Shown: positions 783-18,803 of the stretch, piece by piece | Position numbering within the stretch: the first letter of the stretch is position 1 | Layout: every line of letters begins with the position of its first letter | Source: a virus | DNA length: 32,156 bases | Direction: 5' to 3' (one strand) | Virus record (IMG/VR): IMGVR_UViG_3300043772_001656 | Coordinates: 1-32,156 of that record | Notes under the pieces: generated by a model | What the model was told of the DNA's origin: nothing | The model's database searches: none | What the model saw: only the letters and a program-made list of their open reading frames with translations | Position numbers and translations under genes: made by a program

Positions 783-1366
783 TACCACACCCTCGCGATA
801 TACCGTGAGAGCTTCGACCGAAAACGATCTGTGAGTTCCTTGTAGATCGTCGTCGTCATGACGCCGCCTTCAGTCGATGCTACGCTACGAAGTCCGAGAC
901 GGTTCTCACGACCTGAGAAGTCGGTAAACTTAAAGAGCTCGACGACCATCTCTTCGCAGACGTTCTCGACGTCCTTTGGCACTACGTGAGTCGTCCCGTC
1001 GAAACCTACCGTCGCATTCACGCGCCATAGGTAGCCCGACGTCAAACCGCTCTCATAGTAGACTTGAGACACGCCGTCGACTTTCGTCACGATCGCTCCA
1101 GTCGCCGTTGTCCATGCTGCGTCCGTAGGATTTGCTTTGTACTGTAGCGACGTGAGCACAACCGGCACTGTGTACGGGAGAACGAAGACGCGGTCGCCGT
1201 TCGATGTGAAGTCGTATGTTACCGATGCAGACGCAATCGGCTGCTTACAGATCCCCTCGATAATCGACTCCGCCTGTGTGATAAGCACGCCGAGCCGCGC
1301 GTCCTGCGTACTGTCTCCGATGTTGATCCACGAAGCGCGAATCTTTGCCGCTGTTGTTAAGGCCAT
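782..1366 (-). CDS. Head-tail connector (gp6-like adaptor)
   Basis: This 194-aa protein has an N-terminal helical segment (ALTTAAKIRASW ... RLGVLITQAESIIEGICKQ), a beta-rich middle and a C-terminal helical tail. That is the layout of the phage connector/adaptor family (HK97 gp6 type), which forms a ring under the portal. The N-terminal pattern of a short helix followed by a second helix ending in 'ESIIEGIC' is typical of the family. It overlaps the lysin gene by 10 bases upstream and the gp10-like gene by one base downstream. The order connector then gp10-like then terminator matches HK97-type late operons. Function is inferred from family appearance and position. Confidence 0.75.
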   Translation of the reverse strand: MALTTAAKIRASWINIGDSTQDARLGVLITQAESIIEGICKQPIASASVTYDFTSNGDRVFVLPYTVPVVLTSLQYKANPTDAAWTTATGAIVTKVDGVSQVYYESGLTSGYLWRVNATVGFDGTTHVVPKDVENVCEEMVVELFKFTDFSGRENRLGLRSVASTEGGVMTTTIYKELTDRFRSKLSRYIARVW

Positions 1367-1824
1367 TTCTTGTCACCCTTTGTAATCAGTTCGTAGTATC
1401 CGCGGTCGTCGTCGTTCATGTGCTTAGGCATTCGGTACGCGATAACGCGCGTCTTAGGGTAGGCGCTGATGTTGACGGCGTTCGACTGATTACCGCCTAA
1501 GATGAACACGTACTTGTCCGTCTCGCGAATGTAGAAGCCCACGTGACCGCCGCCGTTACGAGTGAGCACGACGATACATCCCGCAGTCGGTTTGCATTCG
1601 ACCCCCCACGTCGCCCACGACCGCGCCGCAGCTGATCGCGTAGGCGTGTACCCTGCACGCTTCATAACCCAATTAACGAACGACGAGCACCACGGGACTT
1701 CGTCAGTAGTAGCGCTGAGCGTCGTCTCGCGATGGTACTCGATTATCCGCGGGTTGTGATTTAGGCCGGGGACTTCTTTCTCGCCGATCTCATCTTCAGC
1801 GATCGTCAGCCATGAGAACTTCAT
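1357..1824 (-). CDS. CHAP-like peptidoglycan hydrolase (TIGR02594-type lysin)
   Basis: This 155-aa protein starts MKFSWLTIAEDEIGEKEVPG and continues with NPRIIEYH, then EVPWCSSFVNWVMKRAGY and GGGHVGFYI. This is the pattern of the TIGR02594 family, whose members resemble CHAP/NlpC-P60 amidases or endopeptidases. Cys46 in WCSSFVN and His94 in GGGHVGFY are the expected catalytic pair. There is no signal peptide or binding domain, so export would rely on a holin. Its start overlaps the stop of the metallopeptidase gene by 4 bases. I read it as the phage endolysin; a role as a virion-associated lysin is less likely from its place next to the holin candidates. Confidence 0.82.
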   Translation of the reverse strand: MKFSWLTIAEDEIGEKEVPGLNHNPRIIEYHRETTLSATTDEVPWCSSFVNWVMKRAGYTPTRSAAARSWATWGVECKPTAGCIVVLTRNGGGHVGFYIRETDKYVFILGGNQSNAVNISAYPKTRVIAYRMPKHMNDDDRGYYELITKGDKKWP

Positions 1825-15222: not shown

Positions 15223-16103
15223 GTGTTCTCCTTCGTTAGTTGTTCATATTGTTCTATCGCTGCGAAGATCTGCATTGCGACCTGTGGGACTATGGCGTTT
15301 CCGTAGCCCTTGATCGATTCGTTGCGCCACTTTGGAAAGGTAATTCCGTCCAATTCACGGGGAAGCCCATCATCTCCGCTACAAATCGGGGAGACAGTTG
15401 GGAAGTCTTGCCAGGTATTCCCATTTGATGGCCATAGACCAATCTTGTCGCCAAATGTGTCGACTTCTCTGGTGTTCTGCCGGATGTCCTCGGCAGGCCC
15501 ATCTGTCCATCCCATGCTTTCGGCGTCGGTAGCATGCAAAACTTCGCTCTCGTCGATAAACTCCTTCCGCTCTTTGATTGTGTGTGGAAGTTGTTCGAGC
15601 TGCGCTCCGCGGCTGCGGGCGTAGGCAACAATCCAGACCCGGTCTCTCCTATGGGGAGCGCCGACGGCTGCAGCTGGAATAATAAACGGCTGTACGGCGT
15701 AACCTTCAGCTTCCAATTCAGCGCACACCTCTTCGAGTACCACGCCCCCGTTCCAAGTAGTAAGCCCGAAAACGTTTTCGCCCACGACGTAACGAGGTCG
15801 GATCTCTCGAATAGCTCGAAGCATGTGGGGCCAGAGATGACGATCATCGTCTTTCCCTTTGCGCTTGCCCGCTGCGCTGTACGGCTGACAAGGGAATCCT
15901 CCCGTGAGGACGTCAATCTGTCCTGCGTGAAGAGTGAAGTCTGTTGTTGTGATGTCGACATAGCTTGTAGCCTCTGGCCAGTAGTGATGCAAAACTTTGC
16001 GAGGGAAGTCCATCCACTCGCAGTGGAAGACGTTAGTCCATCCCATGCGCTGAGCGGCAAGGTCGAAGCCTCCGATCCCTGAGAAGAGCGAGCCGTGATT
16101 CAT
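15219..16103 (-). CDS. DNA (cytosine-5) methyltransferase, Dcm family
   Basis: This 294-aa enzyme carries C5-methyltransferase motifs in order: motif I MNHGSLFSGIGGFDLA, motif IV GGFPCQPYSAAGKRKG (catalytic Cys72), motif VI VVGENVFGL, motif VIII APHRRDRVWIVA and motif X GYGNAIVPQVA. The stretch between VIII and X (target recognition) is short. It transfers a methyl group from SAM to cytosine C5, probably hiding phage DNA from restriction. I chose the ATG at 16103 with GGAGAC upstream, because motif I begins five residues later; the open frame to 16181 is not needed. A second, protein-like frame overlaps most of it (15290-15847). Confidence 0.93.
   Translation of the reverse strand: MNHGSLFSGIGGFDLAAQRMGWTNVFHCEWMDFPRKVLHHYWPEATSYVDITTTDFTLHAGQIDVLTGGFPCQPYSAAGKRKGKDDDRHLWPHMLRAIREIRPRYVVGENVFGLTTWNGGVVLEEVCAELEAEGYAVQPFIIPAAAVGAPHRRDRVWIVAYARSRGAQLEQLPHTIKERKEFIDESEVLHATDAESMGWTDGPAEDIRQNTREVDTFGDKIGLWPSNGNTWQDFPTVSPICSGDDGLPRELDGITFPKWRNESIKGYGNAIVPQVAMQIFAAIEQYEQLTKENT
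15290..15847 (-). CDS. Overlapping alternative-frame ORF within the C5 methyltransferase
   Basis: A 185-codon frame lies one base out of phase with the methyltransferase (ATG at 15847 preceded by AAGGGAAAGACG; open further to 16060). Its translation is not random-looking. It has WYSKRCALNWKLKVT then YSRLLFQLQPS, two LLPTP/MLPTP repeats, and the ending SQLSPRFVAEMMGFPVNWT. From memory, these phrases match a family of phage proteins annotated beside or overlapping dcm genes ('...GLLPTPTA... QLNPxFVEWMMGFPxxWT...'). I cannot verify this here. It is either a true overlapping gene or an old frame conserved for the sake of the methyltransferase. Product function unknown. Confidence 0.5.
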   Translation of the reverse strand: MIVISGPTCFELFERSDLVTSWAKTFSGLLLGTGAWYSKRCALNWKLKVTPYSRLLFQLQPSALPIGETGSGLLPTPAAAERSSNNFHTQSKSGRSLSTRAKFCMLPTPKAWDGQMGLPRTSGRTPEKSTHLATRLVYGHQMGIPGKTSQLSPRFVAEMMGFPVNWTELPFQSGATNRSRATETP

Positions 16104-16116
16104 GTTGTCTCCAGTT

Positions 16117-16194
16117 AAAAAAATATCGCCCGGTTCGCCGTCGGTCGCCGGGGCTCGGAGGTATTCTGACGACGGTTCCACGCGCCGCCGACGG
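16117..16194 (-). terminator. Structured GC-rich spacer with T-run between methyltransferase genes
   Basis: The 102-base spacer holds a 7-bp inverted pair (CCGTCGG and CCGACGG on the minus strand, at 16188-16194 and 16138-16144), further CCCGG/CCGGG pairing, and then seven T's (16123-16117 on the minus strand) shortly before the C5-methyltransferase ribosome site. It could be a partial terminator or attenuator that separates the two genes. The hairpin next to the T-run is weak, so the call is tentative. Confidence 0.35.
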
Positions 16195-16205
16195 TCTCCG
16201 GTGTT

Positions 16206-17162
16206 TTAGTCGAATAGGGTTGTCTGTGAATCGTCGACTACGTCGATTGATTCCATGTTGAGAGTCGCTTGCTTAAAATAGGAGCTCTTGAGTTCGACTC
16301 CGATTCCGAGGCGCCCGTTTTGTACTGCAGAGTACACCTCACTACCTACGCCCATGAAGGGAGTAAACACCTTTTCGCCTTTGTTGGAACGAAGAGTTAC
16401 GACGCGGTCGATGACGTCGAGCTGCAGCGGGTGCACGTGCTTTTCGTCGTCCGGGTCTTTGCTATCTTGAAACGGGAGTACTCGCTCCATGCGGATATCA
16501 TCCCAGATAGACGAAGCGTAGCGCCTCCAGATGTTATGCGAGTACTTGTTCTCGGTTTGCTTGCCTGTCCAACCTTTATACGAAAGACAGTCCTCTGGTA
16601 GTGGTGCCTCACCTGCGTAGAACTCGAGGCCCGTTGGATTAGCTATCGGTACCGGGTTGTCTCCTGAGCGTCTAAAGATCAGCATATAGTCCGCAGAGGC
16701 TACGCCTGCGTTGCTCGCATCGTCGACGATCGTTTTGTGAGCGAGGTTCTTTACCATCGTGCGATTACGAACCCATAGCGGCTCCTTCCAAATCGTATGT
16801 CGTGCGATGAAGTGCCACCCGTTCTCTTCATGCAATCGTATGATATGACCGGGCAGATCATACAACGAATCGCGACCGCTGTTACCCATAGGGATATCTG
16901 TGCAGTGTACGGCAGTAATGCGACCCGACATTGTGATACGATGTAGTTCCTTCACTACGTATCCGTAGTGATTAAAGAACTCGTCGTAGTTGCTACAGTT
17001 CGAAATGTCTCGTTCGTCGCTACTGTAATGATAGAGACCTGCGAACGGAGGGGAGTATACTGATAGGTGAATGCTACCGTCTGGTAGATCGTTCATCACT
17101 TCCACGCAATCGCCATTATAGATAGCGTAACGATCGGTAAGTAGTTGATTGATTAGAGCCAT
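16206..17162 (-). CDS. Beta-class DNA methyltransferase (N4-cytosine/N6-adenine type)
   Basis: The 318-aa product has motif IV near the N-terminus (IHLSVYSPPF, residues 31-40) and the SAM-binding motif I near the C-terminus (KVFTPFMGVGSEVYSAVQNG then GIGVELKSSYF). This order defines beta-class amino-methyltransferases. SPPF in place of DPPY points towards N4-cytosine, but N6-adenine cannot be excluded. The middle (about 110-240) should hold target recognition. It overlaps the helicase gene by 10 bases. Phage genomes often pair a SNF2-type helicase with such a methyltransferase, so the two probably work together on phage DNA protection. Confidence 0.88.
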   Translation of the reverse strand: MALINQLLTDRYAIYNGDCVEVMNDLPDGSIHLSVYSPPFAGLYHYSSDERDISNCSNYDEFFNHYGYVVKELHRITMSGRITAVHCTDIPMGNSGRDSLYDLPGHIIRLHEENGWHFIARHTIWKEPLWVRNRTMVKNLAHKTIVDDASNAGVASADYMLIFRRSGDNPVPIANPTGLEFYAGEAPLPEDCLSYKGWTGKQTENKYSHNIWRRYASSIWDDIRMERVLPFQDSKDPDDEKHVHPLQLDVIDRVVTLRSNKGEKVFTPFMGVGSEVYSAVQNGRLGIGVELKSSYFKQATLNMESIDVVDDSQTTLFD

Positions 17163-18517
17163 GATGGAACCTGAACTTTCTTGACATGTTTATTGATGCG
17201 GTTGATTGCGATTGAGTTGTTCATCTCCGACACCAGTTGCTCGAACATCTTGTCGGCCTGCTTTGCTTTGCGTTGTAGGTTCTTCATCACTCTGTTCTGA
17301 CCTTCGGTATATACAAGGTCAACCGTTACTTCGTTGTTTTGACCGAACCTCCAACACCGACGAACGGCCTGATAGTATTGCTCGTAAGAGTGTGACGGGA
17401 AGAATGTGATATGAGAACAGTGTTGAAAGTTAAGCCCTAACGCCCCGATCTTAGGTTTCGTTACGAGCACGCGTATATCGCCGTCGATGAACGCTCCGAA
17501 CTTCTCGATCTTTGCGTCATCGCTATCCGATCCGGACACCTCGACGGCGTCCGGTATCATGTCACGTAGTGCGCGTGCCTCTTCGTTTAGATCACACCAT
17601 ACGAGAGCGGGCTTGCCTGTAGGATTGACAAGGTTGGCAACGTGTCCGCAGCGTTCGTTAGTCGTGCGCTTTCGTTCCTCTCGTTGTTCGTCGAGATGCA
17701 CGGCGGCAAGGTTAAACAAAGCGCCGTCGGGCGCGGTCTGTGATTCGATTAGATGATCGATCTCGTTAAGTGCCGGTAGTCTAAAGTCTCCGTTATCATA
17801 TCCGAGATCAGACGGCATACGAACGGCGCGCGCCCATGAGGTAACCCATCTCCAAAAGGGCTTTTCCGCATGACCCTTGAATCTCCATTTTGGAGCCTCG
17901 CCGTACATGCGCTTGAGTCCGGTGTTATTGTTATCATTCTTAAAAAACTTGCCGAGCATGTCCATAAAGCCCATATACCCAAGGGCCTCACTACTCGTAC
18001 CTAACTCTATGTAGTCGTTAGGCGCAGCTGTAGCGGTAGCAAGTAGTCGGTACGGTATGTGCCGCATGAAATCGGTGATCTCAGTCTTGCGTGTCCCGTC
18101 GAATGATTTCAAGATAGACGATTCGTCGAGCACTACCCCTGCGAAGTCATGACGGCTGAAGTGATGTAGCGACTCGTAGTTAGTGACGACTATGCCTCCG
18201 CTACTGTCTCCTGTCTTGTCGAACCTGCAGTCGATACCAAACTTCGCGGACTCCTTTACCGTCTGAGGCCCTACCGCCAAAGGAGTAAGAATGAGAACGG
18301 GCTTGTTCGTGTGTCGATGTATGTTCTCCGCCCATGTTAATTGCATCGCGGTCTTGCCCATACCGCAGTCAGCGAAGATAGCCGAACGGCCTAACGATAG
18401 CGACCAGTCTACGAGGTCGCGTTGAAAGTCGAAGAGCTTGTCGGGCATGAAGACAGGCTTAACGCCTGACCCGCTGCCTATATGGCTCTTGTCGATTAGA
18501 AAATCTTTGTAGTCCAT
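17153..18517 (-). CDS. SNF2-type DNA helicase/ATPase
   Basis: The 454-aa product starts MDYKDFLIDKSHIGSGSG; AAGGATG lies just upstream. Motifs in order are Q-like FDFQRDLVDWSL, motif I DCGMGKTA (about 50-57), motif II VVLDESSIL (129-137), motif III LATATAAPND (159-168), motif V-like GALGLNFQHCSHITFF and motif VI QAVRRCWRFGQ. This is a complete SF2/SNF2 core without extra domains. Such proteins translocate on duplex DNA. The 147-base open extension to 18664 runs through a tRNA-like element and I reject it. The gene is coupled to the methyltransferase downstream. Confidence 0.9.
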   Translation of the reverse strand: MDYKDFLIDKSHIGSGSGVKPVFMPDKLFDFQRDLVDWSLSLGRSAIFADCGMGKTAMQLTWAENIHRHTNKPVLILTPLAVGPQTVKESAKFGIDCRFDKTGDSSGGIVVTNYESLHHFSRHDFAGVVLDESSILKSFDGTRKTEITDFMRHIPYRLLATATAAPNDYIELGTSSEALGYMGFMDMLGKFFKNDNNNTGLKRMYGEAPKWRFKGHAEKPFWRWVTSWARAVRMPSDLGYDNGDFRLPALNEIDHLIESQTAPDGALFNLAAVHLDEQREERKRTTNERCGHVANLVNPTGKPALVWCDLNEEARALRDMIPDAVEVSGSDSDDAKIEKFGAFIDGDIRVLVTKPKIGALGLNFQHCSHITFFPSHSYEQYYQAVRRCWRFGQNNEVTVDLVYTEGQNRVMKNLQRKAKQADKMFEQLVSEMNNSIAINRINKHVKKVQVPSWL

Positions 18518-18564
18518 TGCACATCCTTGAAAGTTTGGAACATGAAAGCCTATGCGGCTGTATC

Positions 18565-18644
18565 GCCTACCATCGGGAGTCGAACCCGACCTGCACCCGG
18601 TCATGAATCCGCGCCAACGAATTGTATTGACTGTGCATGGTAGA
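18565..18644 (-). ncRNA. tRNA-like element 2 (T-arm and acceptor, no D-arm)
   Basis: On the minus strand, a 7-bp acceptor-like stem TCTACCA/TGGTAGG (one G-U) encloses a 5-bp stem TGCAC/GTGCA with a long arm (inner pairing GTCA/TGAC). This is followed by a perfect T-arm: TCGGG, loop TTCGACT, CCCGA (18573-18589). No D-stem can be drawn and no CCA is encoded. The same plan, with different base pairs, occurs in element 1 at 18671-18732. It sits in the 320-base non-coding stretch before the helicase. A normal tRNA fold with a 7-base anticodon loop could not be drawn convincingly. Confidence 0.55.
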
Positions 18645-18670
18645 TTTTCTGAGCTATCGCTCATACTTTT

Positions 18671-18732
18671 GCCTACCGCCGGGACTCGAACCCGGACACG
18701 CCCGACGATAGCAGCTCGTCGCGTGCGGTAGT
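18671..18732 (-). ncRNA. tRNA-like element 1 (T-arm and acceptor, no D-arm)
   Basis: On the minus strand, the stem ACTACCG/CGGTAGG (six Watson-Crick pairs plus an end mismatch) encloses a hairpin CACG...CGTG continued by CGACGA/TCGTCG with the 7-base loop GCTGCTA. It then has a perfect T-arm: CCGGG, loop TTCGAGT, CCCGG (18679-18695). Total is 62 bases, too short for a normal tRNA because the D-arm is absent, and the 7-base loop lacks U33. The base pairs differ from element 2 while the shape is kept, which suggests selected RNA structure. Confidence 0.55.
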
Positions 18733-18786
18733 CCTTTGCCTGCCTTACGATCCCGCGTGAAGCATGGCGCTTTTAGGGGGGCTTAG

Positions 18787-18803
18787 ACCATAGTGCCTAT
18801 GGT
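18787..18803. repeat. 17-bp perfect dyad (hairpin B)
   Basis: ACCATAG-TGC-CTATGGT forms a 7-bp stem with a 3-base centre. It lies 16 bases from a second dyad of identical geometry (18820-18836) but unrelated sequence, upstream of the tRNA-like elements. No U-run follows. It is either an operator for a dimeric regulator or an RNA hairpin for processing. Confidence 0.6.

Follow-up and report, generated by a model that had tools for sequence, protein, structure and literature searches.

Between the start of a helicase gene (18517) and the stop of the next gene upstream (18838), the window (by which we mean the whole 32,156-nucleotide stretch of viral DNA under analysis) carries two tRNA-like elements, A and B. 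Both are on the minus strand, the coding one in this region (Table 1). A first-pass annotation had placed two such elements here, and both are indeed present. Downstream of A, the order is B, helicase, N6 methyltransferase, a segment that we call block X, and C5 methyltransferase.

Table 1. Features of the element-bearing region and of block X, in window coordinates.
Feature	Position	Strand	Description
Block X	16099..16205	minus	GC-rich, ends in a T-run; downstream of the exchangeable segment after A; 91-97% identity in G001-G003
Element B	18644-18566	minus	Second tRNA-like domain, with a longer central arm; based on fold; 80% DNA match to G050 at 18571-18625
Small hairpin TGAGCGATAGCTCA	18650..18663	minus	5' of B; based on fold and on the plus-strand inverted-repeat listing
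Element A	18732-18672	minus	tRNA-like domain without D-arm: acceptor, central arm in two parts with a GG bulge on its 3' side, canonical T-arm; based on fold and conservation
Hairpin H	18738..18768	minus	Immediately 5' of A; core TCACGCGGGATCGTAAG invariant in five phages
Conserved short block ATGGTCTAAGCCCCCC	18776..18791	minus	Upstream of H; in all five phages

Each element comprises an acceptor-like stem, a single central arm and a canonical T-arm, with no D-arm. Read 5' to 3', A is ACTACCG / CACGC / GACGA-GCTGCTA-TCGTC / GG / GCGTG / T / CCGGG-TTCGAGT-CCCGG / CGGTAGG, and B is TCTACCA / TGCAC / A / GTCA...TGAC / CGG / GTGCA / GG / TCGGG-TTCGACT-CCCGA / TGGTAGG. The acceptor stems, initially described as having seven base pairs, have six clean ones, the seventh pair being A-G in A and U-G in B. 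It had also been claimed that the stems of the two elements differ in sequence while still pairing; the pairing is kept, but A and B have most of their acceptor and T-stem letters in common.

RNAfold reproduced both folds. Because the single-sequence energies were only mildly unusual (z = -1.1 and -1.4), the specificity of the pattern provided a better test against chance than the folding energy. The descriptor consisted of a 6-bp acceptor, a canonical T-arm with a 5-bp stem and a 5-bp central stem leaving no space for a D-arm. Dinucleotide-shuffled versions of the window, totalling 9.65 Mb, gave 6 matches to it (about 0.02 per window), while the real window has two matches within 170 bases. 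The folding-energy asymmetry between strands, tried as a test for the RNA strand, was not informative.

ARAGORN, run on the window in its tRNA, tmRNA and mitochondrial modes (-mt, -mtx, -mtd), reported nothing, and Rfam 15 gave 0 matches in the window at the gathering threshold, so that the element was missed entirely by both. On these grounds a canonical or mitochondrial tRNA and a tmRNA were excluded. The best sub-threshold Rfam match in the window was mascRNA-menRNA (RF01684), at 19.8 bits against a cut-off of 42.5 (18.3 bits in the relative G001); the L191 and L193 regions likewise gave sub-threshold Rfam matches only.

Inspection of the individual parts agrees with these searches. In all copies of the element (described below), the gap between acceptor and central stem is 0-2 nt, which does not accommodate the D-arm of a canonical tRNA. 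A 7-nt anticodon loop with U33 was not found either: the A loop, GCTGCTA, has C in the U33 place and is shortened to 6 nt in G001 and G002, and the B type has an extended arm instead. The encoded sequence lacks a 3' CCA, and there are no tRNA-like ends around a tag reading frame such as would denote a tmRNA. The T-arm is that of a tRNA, with a 5-bp stem closed by G-C and a TTCRANY loop, GGGTTCGANTCCC occurring in all copies. The loop reads as the canonical TTCGANT in every copy; the stem spans 4-5 bp across types, G050 having 4 bp plus a C-A mismatch. Furthermore, the acceptor runs directly into the T-arm with its T-loop and a 5' leader is adjacent, features resembling those of RNase P substrates.

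The first-pass annotation had seen D-armless, tRNA-like shapes, for which a dedicated program might still have found a canonical fold with a D-arm; ARAGORN finds none, and the shapes stand, with no tRNA reported by either program. Its surmise that the pair had gone undescribed is borne out in the libraries searched, and we found no published description in the open-access literature, a coverage that excludes most subscription journals. The retention of pairing despite changes of sequence, set out below, points to an undescribed structured RNA, which the host tRNA machinery might cut or bind.

A DNA pattern derived from the acceptor and T-arm located element A in three viral contigs (L055, L056 and L057). 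Two of them were also returned by a capsid search (95-99% identity), and all three carry the VapE gene, again at 95-99% identity. In most aligned blocks these close relatives are 79-92% identical to the window at the DNA level. Within A they differ by one T-loop letter and one deleted apical-loop nucleotide, the stems being unchanged. This 1-nt deletion, present in G001 and G002, shifts any reading frame through A, and a protein-coding origin of A was accordingly rejected.

An exact 16-mer search with the 16-nt core of hairpin H led to a fifth phage, L188 (contig G050). It is a distant relative, since the amino acid identity to the window is only ~37% for the major capsid protein, 35% for the terminase and 29% for the portal. 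The tRNA-like domain that comes after H in G050 has ACTGGCA/TGCCAGT as its acceptor, GCAC/GTGC and GCACA/TGTGC as its central stems, and AGGG-TTCGACT-CCCT as its T-arm. Model R1, built without the G050 copy, detects that copy at 31.6 bits (E = 3.2e-6), directly after the separately found H core; the covariance-model score of element A is 92 bits. Homologues with conserved pairing, the absence of which would have told against the first-pass annotation, therefore exist in related phages.

The family as we know it consists of five contigs from one public viral collection, representing only three divergent sequence types. Searches by blastn against known phages and against plasmids yielded no relatives, nor did a strict H plus T-arm pattern in 396 + 395 genomes of two phyla. 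A pattern search of genome contigs returned matches that were tRNAs or due to chance.

When all copies, including G050, were aligned by fitting them to the model (a procedure that leans towards structure, the G050 copy being absent from that model), 8 of the 16 modelled pairs had changed on both sides and 95% of the cells were paired. At most one pair had changed on both sides in any of the slid controls. The covariation score was 0.425, as compared to 0.19 in shuffles and no more than 0.08 with slid partners. For A and B with the close relatives of A, leaving G050 aside, 4 of 16 pairs had changed on both sides and the score was 0.25. The second central stem (GACGA/TCGTC, GTCA/TGAC and GCACA/TGTGC), which lies outside the model, pairs in all three types.

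At the level of sequence, these changes show the acceptor stem, central arm and T-arm to be maintained by compensatory change, as the earlier proposal of selection for shape had it; the G050 copy strengthens the support for this proposal. We regard A, B and their relatives as copies of one structured and conserved element, presumably transcribed as RNA. That they are decaying remnants of ordinary phage tRNA genes is very improbable. The canonical T-arm would fit such an origin, and tRNA genes of other phages have related acceptors (GCTACCA...TGGTAGT, in tRNA-Glu), but the stems are intact in five phages, the differences among close relatives fall in loops only, and the distant copy carries compensated changes in its acceptor, central and T-stems.

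The conserved unit is larger than first described, the 5' hairpin and a conserved GG bulge having been overlooked. The invariant core of H comprises 17 nt, and the outer stem of H has other letters in G001 and G050 but still pairs there. H precedes both A and the distant G050 copy. The hairpin before B matches H in relative place; its sequence differs, and it is not H. As for the short block upstream of H, it reads ATGGTTTGACCCTCCCC in G050 as against ATGGTCTAAGCCCCCC; homology to G002 resumes at 18791.

In all copies, a GG (GG in A, CGG in B, AGG in G050) bulges from the 3' half of the central arm at a distance of 4-5 bp from the junction. In the elbow of a tRNA, the T-loop receives G18 and G19 from the D-loop. 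By analogy, the GG bulge could take the place of the D-loop GG and dock into the T-loop, forming a D-less elbow. This geometry is one that we infer, as is the coaxial stacking of acceptor and T-arm; the stems themselves are backed by sequence and covariation.

The apical part of the central arm is variable: A has a loop of 7 or 6 nt, and B and G050 have a longer arm containing TTGGCGYGGATTCATG. Such variability speaks against a role as anticodon. Decoys for host or defence nucleases were among the roles initially suggested; a decoy for anticodon nucleases is unlikely, given that the loop shortens from 7 to 6 nt even among close relatives and that B and G050 have a different, extended arm in its place. 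The apical letters of B, TTGGCGCGGATTCATG, reappear in the distant G050 copy as TTGGCGTGGATTCATG. This near-identical arm and the invariant H core resemble binding sites, as would befit a released, stable small RNA acting in trans, either by binding a host or phage protein (a tRNA-modifying, CCA-adding, decay or defence enzyme) or by base-pairing with targets; several phage-induced regulatory RNAs are RNase P targets (PMC4919922). We consider such a role improbable, however: the A and B loops have no complementary target (up to 4 mismatches) elsewhere in the window, and the dissimilarity of the A and B apical loops makes an anticodon-type decoy unlikely.

The surroundings of the element change from phage to phage. 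After A, G001 has a different methyltransferase and then block X, whereas G002 and G003 have block X at once. The 123-bp island formed by H and A is 94% identical in G002, though the flanking genes differ on both sides. In L188 the element has on one side a small early gene, similar to that found upstream of A, and on the other the gene for the terminase small subunit. Since the neighbours change while the element stays, it marks a genomic place of module exchange.

The element is thus flanked by modules that are exchanged, and it does not go with the helicase operon. The first-pass annotation had suggested a link to the helicase/methyltransferase operon, which our comparisons do not support: A is kept in phages with no helicase at that place, the terminase small subunit follows in one of them, and the helicase relatives (L003-L054) lack the element. 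A tie to the helicase as cargo was rejected on the latter ground.

An attachment-site repeat was also rejected: the direct repeat that A and B have in common encloses only ~106 bp and not the cargo, and no integrase was present among the scanned proteins. A DNA-level site of another kind, i.e., a recombination, packaging or replication signal with incidental inverted repeats, kept where modules exchange, would explain why the breaks in homology coincide with the edges of the H plus A island and why the element occurs shortly before the terminase small subunit in L188. We nevertheless deem it quite improbable. All copies have a canonical T-arm, and their stems have changed in sequence without loss of pairing, as one would expect if an RNA, and not a protein-bound DNA site, were being conserved; in addition, the GC-skew turn is absent at the element, and the scanned subset of ORFs contains no integrase.

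Some observations concern the neighbouring genes themselves. The helicase and N6-methyltransferase pair (16206-18517, minus strand) has 66% DNA identity to Synechococcus phage S-H1, and the helicase also matches many viral contigs. The comparison suggests that the two form a mobile gene pair. The helicase frame is open for 49 codons upstream of the conserved start (18517-18664, minus strand), through B; relatives support no earlier start. A protein-coding origin of B was rejected, as the frame that is open from 18664 through B merely prolongs the helicase upstream, and relatives match the helicase from MDYKDF onward and no earlier. Block X precedes the C5 methyltransferase in the window and another gene in the relatives. 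By inspection it may be terminator-like; a simple terminator scan gave no flag on the minus strand.

In L055 (G001), A ends ~20 nt ahead of the methyltransferase start codon, and in the window B ends ~48 nt ahead of the helicase start. Such positions would suit a cis-acting leader or 3' UTR element, whose fold stays in the mRNA and acts on the translation or stability of the neighbouring gene in the manner of the yjdF riboswitch, and tRNA or tRNA-like leaders are able to raise translation (PMC9142559). On balance this is rather unlikely. The downstream gene differs among most of the phages and block X intervenes between A and the next gene in G002 and G003, so the element follows a place rather than a gene.

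The reading that we prefer, with a probability of about 0.38, is that of a tRNA mimic within a polycistronic transcript, which host RNase P would cleave so as to separate modules. The element would most likely be transcribed together with the surrounding minus-strand genes. Host RNase P, perhaps with RNase Z or RNase E, would recognise the acceptor/T-arm stack and cleave the polycistronic mRNA beside the element, thereby separating upstream and downstream modules, and H would protect the new 3' end of the upstream transcript. Such a cleavage would be analogous to that by which tRNA-like domains are cut out of the MALAT1 and MEN-beta RNAs, both of which terminate in a tRNA-like structure cleaved by RNase P and RNase Z (PMC4919922). 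In bacteria, the substrates of RNase P include mRNAs and phage-induced regulatory RNAs (PMC4919922), and for cleavage by RNase P the D-loop of tRNA appears dispensable, while a T-loop or similar loop is needed (PMC4919913).

In favour of RNase P processing, we count the pairing kept under divergence, the finding of G050 by model R1, the position of the H plus A island, the canonical T-loop and the sub-threshold match to mascRNA-menRNA. Against it, we count the missing encoded CCA, the acceptor end pair, which is not conserved, and the hairpin before B, which differs from H. Because the end pair is not conserved, a precise 5' cleavage site is not evident. Sequence by itself does not separate RNase P processing from other uses of a tRNA-like fold; the possible alternatives, ranked, are a tRNA-like translation leader, then a trans-acting RNA, then a DNA-level site.

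A broader notion, which we regard as somewhat doubtful, is that of a hitherto undescribed class of phage RNA that mimics a tRNA without its D-arm. A GG bulge on the central arm would stand in for the D-loop in the elbow, and the mimic, accompanied by an invariant 5' hairpin, would recruit the host tRNA-processing machinery and divide the phage transcriptome at the borders of exchangeable modules. The tRNA-like structures known best come from plant RNA viruses, from tmRNA and from a small number of mRNAs. A conserved D-armless form in tailed phages, if true, would allow the requirements for a tRNA elbow to be tested on a compact molecule and would provide a natural substrate, devoid of a D-loop, for RNase P or T-arm enzymes. 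It might also be a phage means of keeping the expression of swapped modules independent.

Known systems share some of these traits. The tRNA-like domain of tmRNA has an acceptor plus a T-arm and lacks a D-stem, as does the phage element; the latter, however, is short and continuous, has no tag reading frame, and is not found as a tmRNA by ARAGORN or Rfam. Metazoan mitochondrial tRNAs may also be D-armless, but they decode, whereas the anticodon-like loop of the phage element is not constant in length, and the B type has none. Bacterial Y RNA (YrlA), too, is a non-coding RNA with a tRNA-mimicking module; the phage element, however, has no Rfam match, and the proteins scanned include no Ro60/TROVE protein. 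Phage P4 CI and P1 C4 are short RNAs released by cleavage of a longer transcript, RNase P being the enzyme for P4 CI; they serve as antisense regulators and are not known to have a tRNA T-arm. As short phage RNAs derived from a longer transcript they offer a parallel, but the present element has a T-arm, and its A and B loops have no target complementarity in the window.

The mascRNA/menRNA family (RF01684) is similar in being a small tRNA-like domain, with acceptor and T-arm, where RNase P and RNase Z cut the transcript (PMC4919922); it differs in being a near-perfect cloverleaf (PMC9976931) of animal lncRNA, and 19.8 bits against 42.5 does not demonstrate sequence kinship. The yjdF riboswitch is likewise a tRNA-like fold within a bacterial mRNA, but its four-helix junction is homologous to tRNA-Lys and has counterparts of the D-loop and the T-loop (PMC9142559), whereas the phage element has no Rfam match.

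Two other contigs bear on unusual tRNAs. L184 has a tRNA-Gly-like sequence with a short D-loop (1326-1392, plus strand) that ARAGORN did not report. The L178 contig (minus strand, assigned to a Glaciihabitans MAG) carries a dense array of 14 tRNA genes, some of which have very small D-loops.
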